A stretch of 64,000 bases of DNA from Lachnospiraceae bacterium (GTDB lineage: Bacteria > Bacillota > Clostridia > Lachnospirales > Lachnospiraceae). Where the stretch lies: positions 1-64,000 of the forward strand of contig JAFZUW010000026.1 in the NCBI GenBank assembly GCA_017618195.1, given 5' to 3'. Both the position numbers and the translations under genes were made by a program. The notes beneath the pieces were generated by a model that worked only from the letters and a program-made list of their open reading frames with translations, was not told where the DNA came from and searched no databases. Below, piece by piece: positions 22,442 through 42,443 of the stretch (its first letter is position 1; each line of letters opens with the position of its first letter).

Positions 22442-25400
22442 TTATTTATTGCGCTTTCGGATCTCGTTTCGGACGGCAACCGTGATCAGTGCAATTCCGC
22501 TTAATCCGAAGTAAATCCACCATGCCATATCGCCCCAGATCCGGTTGATGATATAGAGGACAAATATGATCATGCAGACAACGCCGATCCTGAAGTAATA
22601 CTTCTTTTGGAACAGATATCCGAACAGAATCAGTGCAACCGCGGGAACTGCATAGAAGAAGATATCCTCGGTGTTTCCGCTGACCAGTGCCGCAACCCCT
22701 AAAAGAGCCATGGCGCCGGTGCAATAAGCAATCCGGATCGTTCCGATAAGCGTGCGTTCGGGATCGGACGGTTCCGGACGGTCTTCAATGATCCACGGCA
22801 GCACGGCCATCAGCACAAGTGACGGAAGCAGATAGAACTGTCCGATCTGTTCGGCAATTGAGCGTGTGCCCGGGAAACGCATGCAAAGAAGAGTCGAAGC
22901 AATCACAAGGGCTATTCCGAGTACGCGCTTCTTAACGGTCTCGTCATCACGGTAGATTAAGAAGAAGCATATTCCGGTGAACACGAAGCCGGGCAGGGCG
23001 TAAGCCAAGAAGAAGCAGTTCGTAAACAGCATGAAGACGCTTTCAAAGATGGAATTGAACAGATTTCCCTGCGCCAGGGCGCTGCCGGCCTTCTGCAGAA
23101 GTTCCGCCTCATTCTCACTTGCATCCCAGGTAAGGAAAGGCGTTGCGAAGAAGATTATGCTCTGCATCAGAAGCATGTAATCCGGGAAAGGATTACGCCG
23201 GTAAGCATCCGGCTTCAGAATCGTCTGCAGGAATGCGAACAGGGCAAAGAGCAGCACCGGAATCTGACAGAACAGGACGGTAAGCCATGAGAAATTCGTG
23301 TGACCTTTCATCATGAATACCGCATAATGAATGCAGAGGATCGTCAGGAAGATGATCGGCACGAACGATACCGGATAGTATTTGCCGGCAAATATCAAAG
23401 CGCAGACCAGCAGGGTAATGCCGACGGAAAGCGCAATGACCGGATTGGTCTGAAGAGCCGGGTCGATGATCCGGATGAGGAACAGAAGCCCGCAAAGGCT
23501 CATCACCCAGATAAATACGGGGCTGACCGGCTTCAGCGAGCGTTCGGAGCGGAGCAGATAATATACGGCGAGTCCGAGCATGATCAGGGACAGCAGAAGT
23601 TCCGGACGCAGGCAGACTGCCGGGATGCCGAGCCGTTCAGCGGTTTTAAAGTGCCTGAAAATTTCCATGCCGTACCAGAGCGAGGCCGTGGCGGTATAAA
23701 GGCCGGTAAGCAGCAGCGCGGGTGAGGTATTCGGCGCAGTACAGCGGAAACGGAAGTATGCGTAGAACACAACGGCGGGAACAAGGAACGGAAGCAGGTG
23801 CGCAAGAACGTACAGCGTGTCCTTGCCGGAACCGGCGTATTTGCCGCCGAAAGAGATCACTGTGATTTCGACCGCCATGGTAAGTGCGGCAACGAAGAAT
23901 GCGGCTACGCGCGGCGCGGTAAGCTTTTCACTGAGCTCGGGCCGCAGCAGGCCTTCCGGTCCGCAGAGATTCAGGATTACGATCAGGCACACGAAGCAGA
24001 CCGCGATGAGAATCGTTCCCGAAACGGCTCTGCTCACAACGTTTACAACCGCTTCGGAAGGAGCGGTCAGAACGGAGATTCCGAGCGCGTAAAAAAGCGG
24101 CCAGATCATGGAATAAACGTACCGAAGACCGAGGATGCTCTTCGGAAGTTCCGTAACGGAACGGTCGCGCACGTTCAGAAGATCTCTTCGGAACGCATTC
24201 GCAAGCGTCAGCAGTAAGAGGGCAAATGCAAGCACCATCACGACAAGAAAAGCCGTATCGGGCGTGTACAGTTCCTCGTCGTACGTCTTTAAGAACACGA
24301 ACGCTCTCATATAGGCATATGTCCAGATAACGAGCATTCCCATCAAAATGCTTTCACCGAGTACGGTGTAAAGCGGGTGATGCGGAATATAGCAGAAGAC
24401 CGCATAGAGGACGGCGGCAATGATCAAAGCGGTCAGATAAACCGTCGTGCGCGGAAGTCCCGGGAAGATATCAAGAAATTCGTCGCCCGTATCAAGCGTA
24501 ACCGACGAAGCGATGATGTGAAGCACTCCGCCGAGCAGCAGCGTGAATAACGGAAGGATTGCTCCCGCAGCATAATGCGGCTGCTTCCGTATCTTGGTAA
24601 GGAACAGGAATCCGCCGATCAGCGGAATCGTCAGTAAAAGCGGAAGAGGCGTTTCGGTGTTGTAAACAAGCGCGTAGTAGAAGAGCGGAAATGCCGTAAG
24701 AATCAGGAACATGGCACCGCACCAATAGAATACGTTAGAAAGAACCGGAGAGCTCTTTAACAGGAAGGACATTGCGATCAGGCAGGCTGCCGCCGTAAGC
24801 ATCCAGAGAATCGCAGGAAGAAATGCGGTCGGGCGGAACATAAGACCCGTGCCGATCAAAAACAGAACCATGGAAGGCAGGCTTAAAAGACCGTTCTCCT
24901 TAAGACGGAAGGAAGCGGTAAGAAACGCTGCAGCGAGGACGCACAGGAATATACCCGCAATCCGGTTGACGGGACCCGTGCAGCACAAAGTGATTGCCAC
25001 AGCCGACATAACATAAAGGTTGATGACGGTGTAAAGCTCATAAATCCCGGAAAACGGTTCGAAAACGGAGTAACCCGGAATCTTCTTCATAAGCGGAACG
25101 AGAAGCACGGCCGCCGAAGCAAATACCGCGATCACTAGAACGTTCCAGCGGTACGGACTGCCGTTATACCGGAGTGCGACCGTAAAGATAATACAGCTTA
25201 AGGAACAGAGCGTTCCGGCAGCAAACACGCGGCTTTCAAAATAGAGCGCTCCGAAACCGAGCAGAATGAAAAGACACCAAAGTGCCAGAAGAATCGTATT
25301 ATAACTGTTCGGCCCGTCCATTGTGAAGAAATCTCCGAGCAGTCCGAAGGCGGCGGAGCCGAGGATCGTGATCGGCAGGGCAATGCTGCCGATCGAATAA

Positions 25401-26254
25401 AAGGCGATACTCGTATTATTCAGCTTCAGCTTTGCGCGGGCAAAGATACCGGCCGCAAGCAGGATGAAACTGAACGAAAGAAGACAGACGGCACGCGCCG
25501 CAATGCCTAAGCTGCTCCAGGTCGCGGAAATAAAGCCGACCGAAGCGAACAGCAGCAGTACGACACCGAGAACGAGAAGGATGACCATGTTGCTGTTCTC
25601 AGTATTACCTGCAGGCTTAACATGTACCGGCTGCTCCGAATAAGGCCGGTGCACGGGAGGCTCTGTATAAGGCGGCTGAACCGGCCCGGCGGGAGCATTC
25701 GAAGAATACCCCTGACGCGCCGTATTAAGCGGCTGAACGACCGGAGACTTCGGCATGGAAAGCGTCTGCACGGTTACCGGCTGAACGGCAGGCTGCGCGG
25801 GAACGACCGGCTGCTGTGCGGCGTCCGCGGTTACCGGCTGAACAACCGGCTGCTGAGAGGCGTCCGCGGTTACCGGCTGAACGGCAGGCTGCGCGGGAAC
25901 GACCGGCTGCTGAACGGCGTCTTCGGACGCCGGCTTGGGAAATGCAGTACCGGGTTCGTTCGGTTCCTTCATAAACAAAGGAACCGGAATACGGACCGGG
26001 TTTCCGGACTGTACGGTCTGTGCGTTCTGCACTCCGTCCGACGGCTGATCTGCGTCTTTTTGAGTCTCTGAAACAGCAACAACCGGAACATCGTTATAGA
26101 TGTCCGGTTGTATTTTAAACTGCTTGGATTGTTTCAGAAATTTCAGTTCTTCCGTAAGCTGCTTGACGCGGCTTCGCTGTGAAAGACCGTAAATCAGTAA
26201 CGGGACGGGCGACAGAAGATAAACAATCAGAAGTATAATCTCAATTGCCAACAT
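22442..26254 (-). CDS. Very large multi-pass membrane protein of unknown function
   Basis: I do not recognise this 1270-residue protein. Residues 1-20 form one hydrophobic segment with a short basic segment after it. Residues about 75-235 are a hydrophilic, Pro/Gln/Val-rich linker with repeated QPAVQPVTAD/QQPVV units. From about residue 238 to the end there are some 28-30 hydrophobic helices with very short loops. No catalytic motif or transporter signature is visible. The layout (one anchor, a disordered repeat linker, then a giant helical block) resembles DUF2157/DUF2339-type clostridial membrane proteins, but I cannot place it firmly. The ATG at 26254 follows AAAGGGG. An XRE regulator gene lies 40 bp upstream on the same strand. 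Confidence 0.8.
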   Translation of the reverse strand: MLAIEIILLIVYLLSPVPLLIYGLSQRSRVKQLTEELKFLKQSKQFKIQPDIYNDVPVVAVSETQKDADQPSDGVQNAQTVQSGNPVRIPVPLFMKEPNEPGTAFPKPASEDAVQQPVVPAQPAVQPVTADASQQPVVQPVTADAAQQPVVPAQPAVQPVTVQTLSMPKSPVVQPLNTARQGYSSNAPAGPVQPPYTEPPVHRPYSEQPVHVKPAGNTENSNMVILLVLGVVLLLFASVGFISATWSSLGIAARAVCLLSFSFILLAAGIFARAKLKLNNTSIAFYSIGSIALPITILGSAAFGLLGDFFTMDGPNSYNTILLALWCLFILLGFGALYFESRVFAAGTLCSLSCIIFTVALRYNGSPYRWNVLVIAVFASAAVLLVPLMKKIPGYSVFEPFSGIYELYTVINLYVMSAVAITLCCTGPVNRIAGIFLCVLAAAFLTASFRLKENGLLSLPSMVLFLIGTGLMFRPTAFLPAILWMLTAAACLIAMSFLLKSSPVLSNVFYWCGAMFLILTAFPLFYYALVYNTETPLPLLLTIPLIGGFLFLTKIRKQPHYAAGAILPLFTLLLGGVLHIIASSVTLDTGDEFLDIFPGLPRTTVYLTALIIAAVLYAVFCYIPHHPLYTVLGESILMGMLVIWTYAYMRAFVFLKTYDEELYTPDTAFLVVMVLAFALLLLTLANAFRRDLLNVRDRSVTELPKSILGLRYVYSMIWPLFYALGISVLTAPSEAVVNVVSRAVSGTILIAVCFVCLIVILNLCGPEGLLRPELSEKLTAPRVAAFFVAALTMAVEITVISFGGKYAGSGKDTLYVLAHLLPFLVPAVVFYAYFRFRCTAPNTSPALLLTGLYTATASLWYGMEIFRHFKTAERLGIPAVCLRPELLLSLIMLGLAVYYLLRSERSLKPVSPVFIWVMSLCGLLFLIRIIDPALQTNPVIALSVGITLLVCALIFAGKYYPVSFVPIIFLTILCIHYAVFMMKGHTNFSWLTVLFCQIPVLLFALFAFLQTILKPDAYRRNPFPDYMLLMQSIIFFATPFLTWDASENEAELLQKAGSALAQGNLFNSIFESVFMLFTNCFFLAYALPGFVFTGICFFLIYRDDETVKKRVLGIALVIASTLLCMRFPGTRSIAEQIGQFYLLPSLVLMAVLPWIIEDRPEPSDPERTLIGTIRIAYCTGAMALLGVAALVSGNTEDIFFYAVPAVALILFGYLFQKKYYFRIGVVCMIIFVLYIINRIWGDMAWWIYFGLSGIALITVAVRNEIRKRNK
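25771..25912. repeat. Tandem coding repeats in the Pro/Gln-rich linker
   Basis: A 46-base unit occurs exactly at 25771-25816 and again at 25867-25912. The stretch between holds a shorter, related unit (CGGTTACCGGCTGAAC at about 25828). Together they encode the QPVTAD/QQPVV repeats. Copy number here could change by slippage or recombination without breaking the frame. Confidence 0.8.
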
Positions 26255-35839: not shown

Positions 35840-36397
35840 ATGATTTCAGCAGGTGATTTCAGAAACGGTATTACGCTTGAGATTGACGGAAAAGTATTGC
35901 AGGTAGTAGAGTTCCAGCATGTTAAACCCGGTAAGGGCGCAGCATTTGTAAGAACCAAGATGAAGGACATCAAGAACGGCGGCGTGGTTGAGACGACTTT
36001 CCGTCCGACCGATAAGTATCCGCAGGCTCACATTGAGAGAGCGGATATGCAGTATCTGTATAAAGACGGTGATATGTACAACTTCATGAACACCGAGACG
36101 TTCGATCAGATTTCCCTGACCGAAGAGCAGTGCGGCGACGCCATGAAGTTCGTTAAGGAGAACGAGATGGTTAAGACGCTTTCCCATCAGGGTCAGATTT
36201 TCTCCATCGAGCCTCCGTTGTTCGTAGAACTTGAGATTACTTCCACCGAGCCCGGTTTCAAGGGCGACACCGCTACCGGTGCTACGAAGCCCGCTGTTGT
36301 TGAGACCGGCGCAACCGTATACGTTCCGCTTTTCGTTAACGAAGGCGAGACCATTCAGATCGACACCCGTACCGGTGAGTACATGAAGAGAGTCTGA
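35840..36397 (+). CDS. efp: Translation elongation factor P
   Basis: The protein has 185 residues with the three beta-barrel domains of EF-P. The loop [10 protein letters not shown] carries Lys32, the residue that is modified in other bacteria, and the C-terminal domain ends [17 protein letters not shown] relieves ribosome stalling at consecutive prolines. The ATG at 35840 follows AAAGGAGG. It has its own promoter and terminator. No EpmA/B- or YmfI-type modification gene lies in the window. Confidence 0.97.
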
Positions 36398-36462: not shown

Positions 36463-36544
36463 GCATGTTCCGCGGGACCGCTTCGCAAAACGGACCGCAT
36501 AAACTTTTTTTGTATATTTCGAAAGAAAATGTGACGCATTGTTT

Positions 36545-36562
36545 CTCTGAAGCATTTCAGAG
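36545..36562. promoter_or_regulatory. Inverted repeat upstream of the serpin operon
   Basis: CTCTGAA and TTCAGAG form a perfect 7-bp inverted repeat with a GCAT centre, about 50 bp before the first serpin start. I find no convincing -35/-10 pair nearby, so it could be an operator or a hairpin in the leader. Confidence 0.4.
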
Positions 36563-36610: not shown

Positions 36611-37843
36611 ATGGTACGGTTCCGTAAAATCACAGGGATTATTCTTGCAATAGCGGTTGCGGTTTCCTGCTGCGGCTGCAATAATAAGCGGTTTAAGCCG
36701 AAAGGAAAGGATACGGTCGTTCTGACCGAGAAATACACGTTGAGCGCGAGCAGCTCCCGGACGCCGGACAAGAACTTTCAGCAGGTTTACGCGAAGTTCT
36801 CGCTCGGTCTGTTTCAACAGATGCGTAAGGAGGGAGCGGAGTTCGTTTCCCCTTATTCCGTGTATGCCGTGCTTGCGATTGCGATGAACGGCGCCGGCGG
36901 ACAGACGCTTGAAGAGATGAAGGACGTTCTCGGACTTCCGGAAGCAGAACTGAACGCATACATGAAAACGCTTTCGGACCTTTACAACAAGGGCGAGATC
37001 GTGGCGGTTGCCGATTCCGTATGGGTCAACAGCCCGTACCGCAAGAGCATCAAGGAAGATTTTCTGAATATCGCATCCGGTTATTATGATGCGGACGTGA
37101 TCTCGGCGGATTTCGGAAGCAACGAGACGGTCAAAGACATGAATAACTGGGTAAAGGCGAAGACGCTCGGCCGGATCAGCGAACTGATCGATAAGAAGGA
37201 ACTGGACAATATGACGGTGATGGCCGTGTTCAACTGCCTCACATTTGACGGCAAATGGGAGAAACGCTTCGAGAAAGACGCAACCTCCGACGCTCCTTTC
37301 ACGCAGGATGACGGAGCAAGCCGGACCGTTAAGATGATGAGCGGCAAAGCGGAAAGTTATTTCGAGACCGAAGAGTACATCGGAATTGACAAACAGTACA
37401 AGGAAGGATACTTCTTCCGGGCATACCTGCCGAAGGAAGGCGTGACGGCCGAACAGCTTCTGAACGCGATGACCGCCGAGCAGCTGATCAATCCGGGAAA
37501 CTATAACGGAGAGGCGATTCTGAAGCTGCCGAAGATTACGGTAAAGAGTGCGGAGATGAATATGGTTTCCGCTCTTCAGGAGATCGGAATCAGGAAGGCA
37601 TTTTCCGAAAAAGAAGCGGAGTTTCCGAGGCTTTCAACGATGGAATGTTATCTCGAGAAAGTATGTCAGAAGACGTTTCTTGAGGTGGACGAGGAAGGAA
37701 CGAAGGCCGCTGCAGCGTCGAAAGGACTTTTCAAAACCAATTCGGCACCTTTATACCACGAAGTTATCCTGAACCGCTCATTCATTTACGGAATCTATGA
37801 CGCAGCAAACGGAATTCCGTTATTCATCGGTATTTATAATTAA
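36611..37843 (+). CDS. Serpin 1, secreted lipoprotein protease inhibitor
   Basis: The protein has 410 residues. An N-terminal hydrophobic segment ends in a Cys-rich lipobox-like stretch (AVSCCGC). A full serpin fold follows, with NCLTFDGKWEKRF matching the conserved strand-3A/strand-4C region and PLFIGIYN at the end. The hinge EEGTKAAAAS is near-canonical, so the loop should insert and trap a protease. Aligning from the hinge puts Asn at P1; aligning from the C-terminal anchor gives Ala, because the loop is two residues longer than in alpha-1-antitrypsin. It is probably a surface-anchored inhibitor of host, diet or rival serine proteases. Serpin 2 starts 20 bp downstream. Confidence 0.93.
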   Translation: MVRFRKITGIILAIAVAVSCCGCNNKRFKPKGKDTVVLTEKYTLSASSSRTPDKNFQQVYAKFSLGLFQQMRKEGAEFVSPYSVYAVLAIAMNGAGGQTLEEMKDVLGLPEAELNAYMKTLSDLYNKGEIVAVADSVWVNSPYRKSIKEDFLNIASGYYDADVISADFGSNETVKDMNNWVKAKTLGRISELIDKKELDNMTVMAVFNCLTFDGKWEKRFEKDATSDAPFTQDDGASRTVKMMSGKAESYFETEEYIGIDKQYKEGYFFRAYLPKEGVTAEQLLNAMTAEQLINPGNYNGEAILKLPKITVKSAEMNMVSALQEIGIRKAFSEKEAEFPRLSTMECYLEKVCQKTFLEVDEEGTKAAAASKGLFKTNSAPLYHEVILNRSFIYGIYDAANGIPLFIGIYN

Positions 37844-37863
37844 GTTTTGAAGGAGACTTTGAA

Positions 37864-39120
37864 ATGAACAGAAAGAAGAAGTGGATCGCGCTCGTACTTG
37901 CAGGCACCATGGCCTTCGGGCTTTACGGCTGCAAAGGCGGAAACGATCCGGGGGAGAACAGAGATAGAATACAGGGAGAGAAGACGTCATGTCTGACCGA
38001 AGGAATCCAGGCGGGATCGAGCAACGCGAAGGAGCCCGACGACGTGTTCCGCAAAGCTTACGGACAGTTCGCCGCAGGTTTGTTCCGCGAGACGTATAAA
38101 ACCGGAGCGGAGTTCATCTCTCCGTATTCCGCGTACGCCGCGCTTGCCATGGTTTTAAACGGCGCGGACGGCGCGACGCTCGAAGACATGTGTAAGACGT
38201 TCGGTCTTTCCGCAGACGAGCTGAACGCTTATCTGAAGGTATTCGCGGACCGCTACAACAACGGTCAGTCCGTTACCGTAGCCAATTCCGTGTGGTTTAA
38301 CGGATCCTTCCGTGAGGAAGTCCGGAAGGAATTTCTGCAGACCGTTGCCGGTTATTATTCCGCGGAAGCGTTCTCGGCGGATTTCTCCGATCCGAAAACG
38401 CTCGGCGACATGAACGCCTGGGTCGAGGAGAAGACGCTCGGCCGCATCAAGGATATGCTGGATCAGCTGGACGCGGGAGCGGTCATGGTACTGTTTAATA
38501 CGCTCACATTTGACGGCAAATGGGCCGATCCGTTCGACAAGGAAGCAACGAAGGAAGAGGATTTCCGGAAGGCCGGCGGACAGACGGGCCGCGTACAGAT
38601 GATGAGCGGCGAGGCGGAAGCCTATTTCGAAAGTGAAACATACATCGGTTTTGAAAAGAACTACGAAGACGGTTTTTATTTCCGCGCATACCTGCCGAAA
38701 GAAGGATACACCGCGAAGCAGCTCGCGGAAGCATTGTCCGGCGATCAGCTGGCGAATCCCGGCACCTATGACGGCAAAGCATACGTTAAGATGCCGAAGA
38801 TCACTTTGAAAAGCAATATGATGGACCTGATCCCCGCGCTCACGGCTCTCGGAATGGGAAGCGCATTCGGCGGCGCTGCGAATTTCAGCAGGATTACGAA
38901 CAGCGGTGTCCCGATTCTGATTTCCGAAGTAAACCAGAAGACATATCTTGAGATTGACGAAGAGGGAACGAAGGCCGCGACGGCGACCGAAGTCGGTCTG
39001 AGATGCTATGCGGCCGCTCCGGTTCCCGTGAACCATACGGTTGTTCTCGACAGTCCGTTTATATATATGATCTGCGACAGAACAACCGATATTCCGCTGT
39101 TTATCGGCATTTATGAATAA
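37864..39120 (+). CDS. Serpin 2, secreted lipoprotein protease inhibitor
   Basis: The protein has 418 residues. The signal peptide ends in a clear lipobox (GLYGCKGG, Cys about residue 23), followed by a hydrophilic linker and a complete serpin domain (NTLTFDGKWADPF, PLFIGIYE). The hinge EEGTKAATAT keeps small residues, so the protein should be inhibitory. The reactive loop is about five residues longer than in alpha-1-antitrypsin; depending on alignment P1 is Tyr or Val, with Arg and Cys nearby. The ATG at 37864 follows GAAGGAGAC. It lies 20 bp after serpin 1 and 14 bp before serpin 3, so the three are almost certainly one transcript. Confidence 0.94.
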   Translation: MNRKKKWIALVLAGTMAFGLYGCKGGNDPGENRDRIQGEKTSCLTEGIQAGSSNAKEPDDVFRKAYGQFAAGLFRETYKTGAEFISPYSAYAALAMVLNGADGATLEDMCKTFGLSADELNAYLKVFADRYNNGQSVTVANSVWFNGSFREEVRKEFLQTVAGYYSAEAFSADFSDPKTLGDMNAWVEEKTLGRIKDMLDQLDAGAVMVLFNTLTFDGKWADPFDKEATKEEDFRKAGGQTGRVQMMSGEAEAYFESETYIGFEKNYEDGFYFRAYLPKEGYTAKQLAEALSGDQLANPGTYDGKAYVKMPKITLKSNMMDLIPALTALGMGSAFGGAANFSRITNSGVPILISEVNQKTYLEIDEEGTKAATATEVGLRCYAAAPVPVNHTVVLDSPFIYMICDRTTDIPLFIGIYE

Positions 39121-39134
39121 AAAGGAGAATTACC

Positions 39135-40415
39135 ATGAAGAGGTTCAAAAAAGTAATCGCGCTGCTGCTTGCGGCAGTGCTCATGACATCGCTTACCGCC
39201 TGCGGAAACGGGCAGGATGACGGATCGGACAAAAAGAAGCCCACTAAGCAGGCAGAGGAAAAATCCGGCACCGAAGAGCTGACGAAGACGTCTTCGGGCG
39301 AGGCTCCCGATCCGGAAAAGGTCGCGAAAGGATTTGAGGATGCGGACGATTTCCGTAACGGTTTAAGAAAATTCTCCGCATCTCTTTTGGAGCAGTGCTA
39401 TGAAGGCGATACCATCATGGTTTCGGCGCTTTCGGTCTATGCGGCGCTCGGAATGCTCGCAAACGGCGCGGAAGGCGAAACGCTCAAAGAGATGGAGAAC
39501 ATGTTCGGCTGCAGCGCGGAAACGCTGGCCAACGCGATCCTTTATCTGAATCAGTCTTCAAAGGACCGCAACGTCATGCAGATGGCAAACTCGATCTGGC
39601 TGAACTCCAACGTGAAGTTCAACGTTAAGGACGCATTTCTCGGCAAGATCGGAACCTATTATCAGTCGGCAGTCATGAAGGCGCCGTTCAGTAACGCGAA
39701 GACCGTTGAAGATATCAACGAGTGGGTAAAGAAAAATACCAAGAACCGTATCGAAAAGGTTATCGATGCGCTTACGGACGAGCAGGTTATGATCCTGATC
39801 AACTGCCTCACATTTGACGGCGAATGGATCGTTCCTTTTGACGAAGACGCGACGCAGAAGGATACCGTATTCCACCGCGCGAACGGAACCGAGAAGAAGG
39901 TTGACATGATGCACGGCGAGGGCGACCGTTATTTCGAAGACGAGGATATGATCGGCTTTGTGAAGGGTTACAAGCAGGGTTACGCATTCCGTGCATATCT
40001 GCCGAAGGAAGGCAAGACGGTAAAGGATATCGTTGCCAAGCTGAAATCCGCTCCGGAAATGCCTTATCAGGACGCTTCCGAGATCTATGTGAGGATTCCG
40101 AAGTTTGAAGAAAGAAGCGGTAAGACACTCAATCAGGCGCTTCAGAATCTCGGTATGAAGAAGGCGTTTACGTCCGATGCGGAGTTCGGCAATGTTGCGG
40201 ACATCGGCATCAACATCAGCACGGTCCTTCAGAAGACCTACATCAAGATGAGCGAGAGCGGTACGGAAGCGGCTGCCGTGACGGTTGTTACGCTCGAGAC
40301 GAGCTGTTACAATCCCGAACGGATCGTACGCACGGTTACGCTTGACCGGCCTTTCGTTTACGAGATCATTGATGAGAAGACGGGCGTTACGCTCTTCATC
40401 GGAATTTACGAATAA
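39135..40415 (+). CDS. Serpin 3, secreted lipoprotein protease inhibitor
   Basis: The protein has 426 residues with a lipobox SLTACGNG (Cys about residue 23), a Lys/Glu-rich linker of about 40 residues and a full serpin domain (NCLTFDGEWIVPF, TLFIGIYE). The hinge ESGTEAAAVT is near-canonical. The loop after it (VVTLETSCYNPERIV) is rich in Thr/Ser and carries Cys, Tyr, Glu and Arg; P1 is Ser by hinge alignment or Glu by C-terminal alignment. Its target therefore differs from those of serpins 1 and 2. The ATG at 39135 follows AAAGGAG. A GC-rich hairpin (40456-40470) lies after the gene, but lacks a T run. Confidence 0.94.
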   Translation: MKRFKKVIALLLAAVLMTSLTACGNGQDDGSDKKKPTKQAEEKSGTEELTKTSSGEAPDPEKVAKGFEDADDFRNGLRKFSASLLEQCYEGDTIMVSALSVYAALGMLANGAEGETLKEMENMFGCSAETLANAILYLNQSSKDRNVMQMANSIWLNSNVKFNVKDAFLGKIGTYYQSAVMKAPFSNAKTVEDINEWVKKNTKNRIEKVIDALTDEQVMILINCLTFDGEWIVPFDEDATQKDTVFHRANGTEKKVDMMHGEGDRYFEDEDMIGFVKGYKQGYAFRAYLPKEGKTVKDIVAKLKSAPEMPYQDASEIYVRIPKFEERSGKTLNQALQNLGMKKAFTSDAEFGNVADIGINISTVLQKTYIKMSESGTEAAAVTVVTLETSCYNPERIVRTVTLDRPFVYEIIDEKTGVTLFIGIYE

Positions 40416-40485: not shown

Positions 40486-40514
40486 TTGACGGATTGGGTG
40501 GCATGGGTTATACT
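40486..40514 (+). promoter_or_regulatory. Promoter of the ECF sigma/anti-sigma pair
   Basis: TTGACG (40486-40491) and TATACT (40509-40514) are 17 bp apart. This is a housekeeping-type promoter, not an obvious ECF autoregulatory one. Confidence 0.65.
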
Positions 40515-40581
40515 GTAGCCGTTCTTTGGGTTTTTTAACTGCGTGCGGACAGACGCACAGCTTACCTTCAGGAGACGACAC

Positions 40582-41070
40582 ATGAGCCTTAGCCGCTTAC
40601 AACAGGAGGAACATATCCGTCACATTTTGGATACATATGGTGACTTGATGTACCATATGAGCCTGTCCATTGTCGGAAACGCATCGGATGCGGAGGATAT
40701 GGTTCAGGACACGCTTGTCACATATGTGTCGGAGGCGCCCGATTTTCCGGATGAGGCGCATGAAAAGCAGTGGCTTGTAAAAGTCGTAAGGAATAACAGC
40801 CTGATGCTTCTGAGAAAGCAGAAGAACCGTGAACGGATTCTTTCCGAACAGGCGAAGGTAAGCGTCGGGAAAGACGCGGATTACGGGATTATGGACGTTT
40901 TACGGACCCTTCCGGAGAAATACCGGACCGTATTGGTTCTTTTCTATGTGGAAGAGTACAGCGTCGAAGAAATCGCGAAAGTGCTGAAACGATCGGTTTC
41001 GGCAGTAAAGATGAGACTGCAGCGCGGCAGGAAAATGTTAAGCGAACGATATAAGGAGAACGGCCAATGA
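40582..41070 (+). CDS. ECF-type RNA polymerase sigma factor
   Basis: The protein has 162 residues, with region 2 (IVGNASDAEDMVQDTLVTYV) and region 4 (LPEKYRTVLVLFYVEEYSV, then the EEIAKVLKRSVSAVKMRL helix-turn-helix) and no region 3, as in extracytoplasmic-function sigma factors. It should direct RNA polymerase to a small regulon in response to an envelope signal. I chose ATG 40582, preceded by CAGGAGA; the in-frame ATG at 40543 has no ribosome site. The next gene overlaps by 4 bp (ATGA) and encodes a membrane protein that is the likely anti-sigma factor. Confidence 0.94.
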   Translation: MSLSRLQQEEHIRHILDTYGDLMYHMSLSIVGNASDAEDMVQDTLVTYVSEAPDFPDEAHEKQWLVKVVRNNSLMLLRKQKNRERILSEQAKVSVGKDADYGIMDVLRTLPEKYRTVLVLFYVEEYSVEEIAKVLKRSVSAVKMRLQRGRKMLSERYKENGQ

Positions 41071-41861
41071 GGGCAGAAGAGCAATTGAAACAATCGATGC
41101 AGCAGATGCACCTTTCGACCGAAGCGAAGAACCGCATCCTTTCGGATGTGCTTGAAAAGGCTTCGGAACCGAAGGCGGCGAAGCGTCCTTTTTACTGCTC
41201 GGCCGTATTTAAGTCGCTTTCCGCTTCGGCAGCGGTGATCTTGGCGGTGATTCTCATCGTTAGCGGTGCGGCGGTCTTTAAAGACGGATTATTGAGTAAA
41301 ACCAAGAGCGAATCTGACTTTGATCAGGCACCCATTCAGCAGCTGAGTGAGGAGTCCGAACAGGTTGCATACGTTATTCCGATCAGAGGAGAGAAAAGTA
41401 AGGGGATAATCGATTTTTCTCCCGTCACGGACAACCCGAATGATACCACGATTGCCGCCAATCTCGGACCCGGCGAGAAAACGGAGACGGCGAAAAGAAG
41501 CGATGGTTCCGAAATGTATTCTTTCAGAATTCAGGATTATCCGGGTCTGGTTTTATCCAAAGATGCGAACAGCGAGTCAAACTCTTCAGACTCCGCTGTC
41601 TCACTTATGAAGCTTTACGGGACGCTTGAAGAATACCTGTCCGGTGATTATCCTTCCGGCAAATGCTACATCCTTTCCGTATCCAGATCCGGACTTACTT
41701 ACCGGGTCGAGATACGCCTTACCGAGGAGCCCGGATTAAACATACGGACGACTGTCGACCTGAAGGACGTTCCGCAGGAAGGAACCGATTATGTCGTAAC
41801 GCTTGAACGGGATGAGAATGAGGTTTCCTTCCGGGTAATCGACATCAGTAAGAAGGATTGA
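41067..41861 (+). CDS. Membrane protein, probable anti-sigma factor
   Basis: The protein has 264 residues: a charged N-terminal cytoplasmic region of about 45 residues with helical character, one transmembrane helix (about 48-68, SASAAVILAVILIVSGAAVF), and a 190-residue extracytoplasmic domain of unrecognised fold. No HxxxCxxC zinc motif is present. The 4-bp overlap with the sigma gene and the topology are typical of anti-sigma partners. The external domain would sense the envelope signal. The assignment rests on position and topology only. Confidence 0.72.
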   Translation: MRAEEQLKQSMQQMHLSTEAKNRILSDVLEKASEPKAAKRPFYCSAVFKSLSASAAVILAVILIVSGAAVFKDGLLSKTKSESDFDQAPIQQLSEESEQVAYVIPIRGEKSKGIIDFSPVTDNPNDTTIAANLGPGEKTETAKRSDGSEMYSFRIQDYPGLVLSKDANSESNSSDSAVSLMKLYGTLEEYLSGDYPSGKCYILSVSRSGLTYRVEIRLTEEPGLNIRTTVDLKDVPQEGTDYVVTLERDENEVSFRVIDISKKD

Positions 41862-42006: not shown

Positions 42007-42056
42007 GTCGATAATATTGGAGTAAAATGCCGTTCGAAAGAAGGAGGACTATAGAA

Positions 42057-42443
42057 GTGAGTAAAGAAAATGAGCCGATTTACGGCGCGAAACTGAATCC
42101 GGAAGGAATGGACGGGGCCGTAAAGATCGCGAATGACGTGATCGCATCGATTGCCGGACTCGCCGCGACGGAGGCGGAAGGCGTTGCCTACATGAGCGGA
42201 AACATGACGAAGGAATTCATCGGCAAGTTCGGTATCAAGAATCTTTCCAAAGGCGCCGTGATCGGCGTGGAGAACGGAGAGGTCAGCGCGGAGCTGTCGC
42301 TCGTGGTTCAATACGGCTACAGCATCCCGAAAGTGGCGAAGGCCGTACAGGAAAAGGTCAGAACCGCAATCGAAAGTATGACGGGTCTCACGGTACTGCG
42401 CGTGAACGTGCATATTGTGGGAGTGGACATTGAAAAGGCGTAA
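42057..42443 (+). CDS. Asp23/Gls24 family envelope stress protein
   Basis: The protein has 128 residues of the Asp23/Gls24 (DUF322) family, with IANDVIASIAGLAATEAEGV near the start and VNVHIVGVDIE at the end. Family members gather at the membrane and are linked to cell-envelope stress. I prefer the GTG at 42057, which has AAGGAGG (42041-42047) nine bases upstream; an in-frame ATG at 42027 has only a weak, crowded GGAG. In Clostridia this gene usually precedes nusB, as here. A hairpin with a T run lies between the two. Confidence 0.9.
   Translation: MSKENEPIYGAKLNPEGMDGAVKIANDVIASIAGLAATEAEGVAYMSGNMTKEFIGKFGIKNLSKGAVIGVENGEVSAELSLVVQYGYSIPKVAKAVQEKVRTAIESMTGLTVLRVNVHIVGVDIEKA

Follow-up and report, generated by a model that had tools for sequence, protein, structure and literature searches.

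Tandem lipoprotein serpins beside the genes of an ECF sigma factor and a putative anti-sigma factor, and serpins directly behind ECF sigma genes, in a genus of Lachnospiraceae

Bacterial serpins from gut and mouth include the siropins of Eubacterium siraeum and miropin of Tannerella forsythia, which belong with tengpin of Thermoanaerobacter tengcongensis to Group T (PMC8233489). A 2021 phylogeny of the superfamily calls the physiological role of serpins in many prokaryotes enigmatic (PMC8233489). The subject here is a trio of tandem lipoprotein serpin genes, S1, S2 and S3, followed by an extracytoplasmic function (ECF) sigma factor gene and its putative anti-sigma partner, in a 64,000-nucleotide stretch of a Lachnospiraceae bacterium (the window), together with related serpins of the same genus and family. 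In searches of PDB sequences tengpin is the top match for all three proteins, although its loop sequence differs from theirs. Siropins have an inhibitory hinge (PMC5127057), as does the trio, but no tandem array or sigma coupling is described for siropins or miropin in the parts available, unlike in this lineage. Cellulosomal serpins such as PinA of Clostridium thermocellum are clostridial, extracellular and thought to protect surface enzymes (PMC12484212). PinA-type serpins are carried on the cellulosome, whereas those described here are lipoproteins or transmembrane proteins, with no dockerin found by Pfam.

On the regulatory side, the SigV-RsiV pair of Bacillus subtilis consists of an ECF sigma factor and a membrane anti-sigma factor whose outer domain binds the attacking enzyme, which lets signal peptidase cut the anti-sigma factor (PMC4183432). 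By analogy, RsiV would be the closest model for the fused serpin anti-sigma proteins proposed below; RsiV is a lysozyme receptor, whereas the serpin domain is a proposed protease sensor. The SigI-RsgI systems likewise combine an anti-sigma scaffold with varied outer sensor domains (PMC3413522, PMC12484212), as the serpin partners do, but they involve another sigma class and carbohydrate-binding module or glycoside hydrolase sensors, and the parts available describe no serpin sensor. Coupling of serpins or serpin-bearing anti-sigma factors to sigma factors was not reported in the literature searched, which was covered in part and without bioRxiv preprints and most subscription papers. The novelty lies in the gene cassette and in the sigma-coupled serpins; the trio alone is ordinary in kind, as tandem lipoprotein serpins occur in other genomes.

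A cassette of serpins and an ECF sigma factor between efp and asp23

In our judgement the trio probably supplies the effectors of an inducible defence against proteases at the cell surface. Its genes lie in a cassette with the order efp, one to three serpins, ECF sigma factor, anti-sigma factor and asp23, which is present in seven of the 22 genus genomes searched (G000, the window's own, and G001, G005, G007, G012, G017 and G020; in G017 it is divided between two contigs). Downstream of the sigma region lie asp23 and nusB, joined by xseA in the six with enough sequence. The elongation factor P gene, efp, is present in 22/22 genomes and directly followed by a serpin in the seven, while no serpin lies within 1-1.5 kb downstream of efp in the remaining 15. 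The cassette sigma factor is found at 70-97% identity in exactly the six other genomes with a serpin after efp (next best match 36%), and at 70% identity or more in none of the 15 genomes that lack serpins there. Inheritance of the serpins, the sigma factor and the anti-sigma factor is linked.

The sigma/anti-sigma pair spans 40582-41861, with sigma regions 2 and 4 followed by a membrane protein whose gene start overlaps the sigma stop by 4 bp. This second protein is a putative anti-sigma factor by its position and topology; at E 0.001 the window copy matches neither a Pfam nor an NCBIfam family, and NCBIfam gives one implausible match at E 0.028. Its N-terminus is alignable in 7/7 cassette genomes while the outer domain is barely alignable, despite the sigma identity of 70-97%, and the outer domain is therefore a putative fast-changing sensor. 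The sequence-only reading of this DNA had left out the sigma/anti-sigma pair adjoining the trio.

In the alignment of efp-serpin intergenic regions, GTGAC-N16/17-GCATTT is the sole strongly conserved block, present in all seven cassette genomes (TGTGAC in six, AGTGAC in G005). A promoter scan from 36300 to S1 found no sigma-70-type site, and the serpin box, judged by its sequence, is conserved and not sigma-A-like. We infer that the neighbouring sigma factor reads it. Before the sigma gene itself, a site of sigma-A form is visible in five of the seven. The exact serpin-promoter pattern has one further match in G000, and the looser form TGTGAC-N16-18-GCATTT occurs at 27 places in the cassette genomes, six of which are the serpin promoter (the AGTGAC copy of G005 is missed). 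Of ten further places, the match was located in five, three inside long open frames (L335, L348, L330) and two outside such frames, 60-80 bp ahead of an open reading frame (ORF) (L337, L352). The 15 remaining genomes hold it at 24 places, two of them on serpin contigs (G015 C1, G018 C6) but both more than 50 kb from the serpins.

In the proposed mechanism S1, S2 and S3 would be anchored outside the membrane, each offering a bait loop with a different P1 residue (Asn, Tyr and Ser). As is usual for serpins, cutting of the bait would trap the protease covalently while the hinge becomes part of sheet A. The ECF sigma factor and its membrane anti-sigma factor would be produced from the sigma-A-like promoter; an outside protease, or stress arising from it, would lead to regulated proteolysis and loss of the anti-sigma factor, and the sigma factor thus released would read the GTGAC-N16/17-GCATTT promoter and raise serpin synthesis until the protease is gone. 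For the trio, inhibition, the protease targets and proteolysis as the signal are inferred. A precedent for such induction would be a bifidobacterial serpin that reportedly is induced by protease via a two-component system.

The same promoters bear on a constitutive shield, in which the lipoproteins guard surface enzymes against neighbours' proteases, like PinA, and the sigma/anti-sigma pair is a mere neighbour with its own regulon. Such a shield is rather unlikely. It would account for the sigma gene having a promoter of its own, and a second lipoprotein serpin array of the genus, with no adjacent sigma gene in the scan and an inverted repeat TGTTA...TAACA common to 8/11 of its upstream regions, indicates that a sigma factor is not obligatory. 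Against it stand the joint occurrence of sigma factor and serpins at the cassette site (7/7 against 0/15) and a serpin promoter box that does not resemble a sigma-A site.

Table 1. Genes and promoter-like elements of the serpin cassette in the window.
Feature	Position	Strand	Remarks
Elongation factor P gene (efp), left border	35840..36397	+	Pfam EF-P domains
Promoter-like two-box TGTGAC-N16-GCATTT, candidate ECF-sigma promoter	36530..36557	+	Upstream of S1
S1, lipoprotein serpin (predicted)	36611..37843	+	Hinge from 37691; P1 Asn 37739-37741, P1' Ser
S2, lipoprotein serpin (predicted)	37864..39120	+	Hinge from 38959; P1 Tyr 39007-39009, P1' Ala
S3, lipoprotein serpin (predicted)	39135..40415	+	Hinge from 40254; P1 Ser 40302-40304, P1' Cys
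Sigma-A-like promoter TTGACG-N17-TATACT	40486..40514	+	Before the sigma gene; promoter scan
ECF-type sigma factor gene	40582..41070	+	Pfam sigma-70 regions 2 and 4; possible GTG start at 40543
Putative anti-sigma factor	41067..41861	+	N-terminus of about 50 residues; a single hydrophobic segment; outer domain
Asp23-family gene, right border	42027..42443	+	Pfam Asp23 E 3e-31; after the sigma region in cassette genomes

Elsewhere in the window, a 1270-residue protein on the minus strand (22442-26254) has as its only match a DUF2157 membrane family, under that family's cut-off.

Fold, reactive loops and descent of S1, S2 and S3

The three genes encode proteins of 410, 418 and 426 residues, are separated by spacers of 20 bp and 14 bp, and match Pfam Serpin PF00079 over almost the entire domain (E 2e-75, 3e-75 and 6e-76). 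Each protein starts with a hydrophobic segment that has a lipobox-like Cys at its end, and all three are predicted lipoproteins, the class that the topology script also assigned. The hinges read EEGTKAAAAS, EEGTKAATAT and ESGTEAAAVT. Among the 12 sequences of the S1-S3 clades the hinge is of inhibitory type from P17 to P8, with P15 Gly, P14 Thr and P12 Ala in 12/12 and Ala or Val at P9, and four of the five breach and shutter residues Ser53, Ser56, Asn186, Trp194 and His334, in the usual numbering, are invariant in 12/12, His334 being the exception. The serpin fold, lipobox and hinge are common to all three, and their loops are distinct. An AlphaFold2 model of S2 from 61 sequences has a mean predicted local distance difference test score (pLDDT) of 88 and a predicted template modelling score of 0.85, with the hinge (368-373) as a strand and the reactive loop residues 374-386 at pLDDT <50. 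With their lipoprotein class and a sigma gene on the downstream side, the three do not qualify as serpin-bearing anti-sigma factors: S1, S2 and S3 have neither a cytosolic N-terminus with transmembrane helix nor a sigma gene upstream.

Much of what had been read from the sequence alone is borne out by these results. That the window holds three complete serpin genes with spacers of 20 and 14 bp, and in each a secretion signal and Cys, agrees with ORFs, Pfam and lipobox; the near-canonical hinges read as had been claimed, and surface lipoproteins in one co-oriented cluster are supported by the sequence and the script class. Of the two P1 residues offered for each loop, the first choices (Asn, Tyr, Ser) have better support than the second (Ala, Val, Glu). 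The description of serpins as sparse in bacteria fails for this lineage, in which at least one serpin is present in 21/22 genus genomes, the window's own included, and in 73/200 genomes sampled from Lachnospiraceae. Four are present in the window's own genome (2.75 Mb, 82 contigs): besides the trio, on contig C64, there is a single gene on C66.

Counting from the hinge gives S1 Asn-Ser at P1-P1' in the window, with P1 Lys in the nearest orthologue (G005) and P1' Ser in 2/2. For S2, P1 Tyr and P1' Ala are found in 5/5, and for S3, whose P1' is Cys in 5/5 orthologues, P1 is not constant (Asn in two, Ser, Glu and Ala in one each). Since P1' is constant across orthologues in this register, the P1 residues Asn, Tyr and Ser are better supported by the alignments than the C-terminal register (Ala, Val, Glu), which is disfavoured. 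Between S1, S2 and S3 the loops, as had been noticed, have diverged after the hinge, with 6-13% identity against 37-50% in the core. Among orthologues, loop and core identity are 62% and 61% for S2, 47% and 64% for S1 (one pair) and 28% and 56% for S3, so that the S1 and S3 loops differ between orthologues rather than being identical in all of them.

The sequence-only reading had also mentioned elastases, as inhibited by some serpins of gut bacteria, and had proposed assays with gut proteases. In a host-directed reading along these lines the serpins would inhibit elastase-like or chymotrypsin-like proteases of the host, as siropins do in the human gut, where they inhibit human neutrophil elastase and proteinase 3 (PMC5127057, PMC8233489). 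No support for such targets emerged, and two relatives in the genus originate from the omasum of a goat (L089) and the reticulum of a water buffalo (L093). Because the P1 of S3 varies behind a fixed P1' Cys, and that of S1 is Asn here and Lys in its nearest orthologue, no single host enzyme fits, and modulation of the host is very improbable. Microbial or protozoal proteases would be as likely targets of the trio as gut proteases.

Duplication as the origin of the trio is upheld. Protein identity to S2 is 48% for S1 and 40% for S3, and in a tree of the genus (84 serpins, reactive loop left out) S3 orthologues form a clade of five rows (support 100/99), while S1 and S2 share a clade of seven rows (100/99) in which S1 (two rows) is nested among S2 orthologues. 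S1 is therefore the younger duplicate, and S3 an older paralogue. The ratio of nonsynonymous to synonymous substitution rates (dN/dS) in the core is 0.13-0.34 (17 pairs; dS >1 in five). The second three-gene lipoprotein array keeps its order in eight genus genomes (L037, L051, L054, L057, L060, L068, L074, L086); its first and second positions form clades of 9 and 10 rows, and its third position forms a clade only jointly with class B, a group treated below (25 rows, 96/87). Five tandem lipoprotein serpins also occur in another genus of the family (G110; L229 615-7679).

Several observations weigh against the trio as the effector arm of an inducible defence. The seven cassette genomes are close kin, with EF-P identity of 94-100% among them against 82-87% in the others, so that co-inheritance of serpins and sigma factor represents one or a few events, not seven. 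Furthermore, the serpins at the efp locus are not all orthologues of S1-S3, as another clade takes in the only serpin there in G012 and one of the two in G001. The sigma gene, with its own promoter, may govern other genes. A P' side of 7-10 residues makes P1 ambiguous, and alternative bonds may serve; the title of a paper on miropin indicates that bonds other than one P1 may be used. The loops of the window array are no rate outlier: with four pairs pooled, the proportion of nonsynonymous differences is 0.27 in the loop against a mean of 0.22, and 42/183 windows of the same length are as fast or faster. The S2 model, compared by fold, is a serpin, but native, latent and polymer forms of tengpin and cleaved serpins score similarly, and the prediction does not separate the native from a loop-inserted state. 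Finally, the shutter residue His334 is Gln in 11/12 S1-S3 sequences, including all three window genes, in contrast to the second array, where it is His in 28/30.

The altered shutter would also suit non-inhibitory or decaying paralogues retained by inertia. This is scarcely credible, given open frames, a core dN/dS of about 0.2, intact hinge and breach residues and a loop of S2 that is conserved across five species. With regard to rates, the comparison of loop and core that had been proposed earlier was run, and an arms race in the window loops is unsupported. Since these loops are not outliers and that of S2 is as conserved as its core, fixed, distinct specificities fit better. In the 62 rows outside class C no part varies more than the loop (3.0 bits in its best 15-column window against a mean of 1.85), and it is the fastest window, with 0/183 equalling it in each case, in the second array (six pairs), class C (five) and class B (two).

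Serpins directly behind ECF sigma genes

Beyond the cassette, sigma coupling takes a second form. Among 84 serpin ORFs of the genus, two 5'-truncated and 82 classed, 21/82 lie directly downstream of an ECF sigma gene, defined as an ORF gap of -260 to +120 bp, with sigma genes detected by a self-built profile of five sequences at E up to 1e-4. Fourteen of these belong to class C and seven to class B, classes that follow tree clades and not topology. Within the class B and C clades 21/34 are sigma-adjacent, against 0/48 of the others (which include the non-lipoproteins L041 9866 and L051 6529). Fisher's test of the association gives p 5e-11. A binomial test with a background of 22 sigma-type matches in an estimated 2500 genes gives p 7e-25, and both values are too small because the genomes are kin. 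For thirteen serpins of classes B and C that position holds no sigma gene, in one case at a contig edge; five class C serpins of this kind (L036, L042, L044, L050, L084) give the impression that the pair was split or that the sigma gene was lost.

The window's own genome takes part in this pattern. Its C66 serpin (L034 7735-9842) is transmembrane and begins where an ECF sigma gene ends, with an overlap of 4 bp by the first start, and its hinge count gives P1 Met and P1' Gly. In a family sample of 80 regions with 94 serpins, one 5'-truncated, 18/93 are directly downstream of sigma, 17 read as transmembrane and one (L189) signal-peptide-like. The lipoprotein script mislabels transmembrane serpins that have a Cys in the helix, as in four sigma-adjacent class B rows of the genus, L201, L205 and some without sigma. 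Two such pairs stand side by side in each of two loci (L039 6613-8777 and 9337-11483; L135 2144-6190), one sigma-adjacent transmembrane serpin (L155 3355-5514) also has BspA-type leucine-rich repeats, and in L189 (3336-7061) a sigma gene is followed by the signal-peptide serpin and then by a serpin with an anti-sigma-like N-terminus.

Among 61 loci of other Clostridia selected by similarity, 4/78 serpins are directly behind sigma, and a further 16/78 have sigma 120-1300 bp upstream, an interval that may not hold exactly one gene. This recurrence would agree with serpins as guardians of the switch, which restrain the site-1 protease that cuts the anti-sigma factor and so set the sigma threshold by negative feedback more than they fight foreign enzymes. 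The conserved cassette order, and an anti-sigma outer domain as poorly alignable as an accessible protease substrate might be, point the same way. Three different P1 residues, however, exceed the need of one internal protease, and most classed serpins have no sigma gene in the tested positions; such guardianship is distinctly improbable.

Serpins as possible outer domains of anti-sigma factors

To judge from its sequence, the sigma-adjacent serpin apparently serves as an anti-sigma factor's outer domain. Behind the same sigma families non-serpin genes occupy the same slot and share the N-terminus and transmembrane helix with the serpin partners; the non-serpin partner L241 and the serpin L236 differ little in this part. 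Profiles of the first 60 residues, built from 23 non-serpin partners for each of the two sigma families (23 + 23), match all the serpin partners, 8/8 in class B and 14/14 in class C, at E < 1e-3 and none of the shuffled copies. Against 977 background ORFs they give 3 and 13 matches, the top three of each adjoining other sigma genes. The rows L045 and L072, labelled lipoproteins by the script, match the class B profile, and the tree also puts both in class B. An AlphaFold2 model of one fused protein, L135 2667-4046 (mean pLDDT 86) places helices at 2-17, 22-32 and 43-62 in addition to the serpin domain. Of the curated families, Pfam finds only Serpin (with repeats in one) on sigma-adjacent serpins at E < 1e-3 and NCBIfam no anti-sigma model; as the non-serpin partners were not scanned against these families, the missing match says little.

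Class B (14 rows, 100/98) arises within the third-position clade of the second lipoprotein array, which suggests the transfer of a lipoprotein serpin to an anti-sigma scaffold. Class C forms a separate clade (22 rows, 100/100). By hinge count P1 is Lys or Arg in 10/13 loops of class B and P1' is Ser or Gly in 11/13, whereas in class C P1 is mostly small or hydrophobic. The shutter of class C is altered (Ser56 to Asn and Asn186 to Thr or Ser, each in 22/22), with P14 Val or Ala in 22/22, which makes inhibitory ability doubtful there. A FastTree phylogeny of 243 serpins gives 27 changes between sigma-adjacent and non-adjacent states; one row called fused (L189) is doubtful. No promoter common to the sensor-type sigma genes and the lipoprotein arrays was found under strict counts; class B sigma genes share TGAGA...GTCTA (5/6) and those of class C GTAAG...GTTGT (7/14).

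We therefore put forward, as a possibility at slightly less than an even chance, that Lachnospiraceae serpins serve as the protease-sensing outer domain of ECF anti-sigma factors, recruited in this genus at least once recently (class B, from the lipoprotein array) and once earlier (class C), with inhibitor and receptor interconvertible and the window trio an effector set under the same defence logic. A protease would attack the bait loop of the serpin, and the trapped or cleaved serpin would change shape; the anti-sigma factor would then be destroyed through regulated proteolysis and the freed sigma factor would switch on defence. If this is correct, a suicide inhibitor has become a signalling receptor that does for proteases what RsiV does for lysozyme, and the result would be a natural biosensor of proteases whose bait loop varies. 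Taken together, the evidence suggests that serpins serve the genus for blocking foreign proteases as well as for sensing them, and the cassette and the sigma-coupled serpins give the role of bacterial serpins, as effectors and perhaps as sensors, a concrete, testable form.

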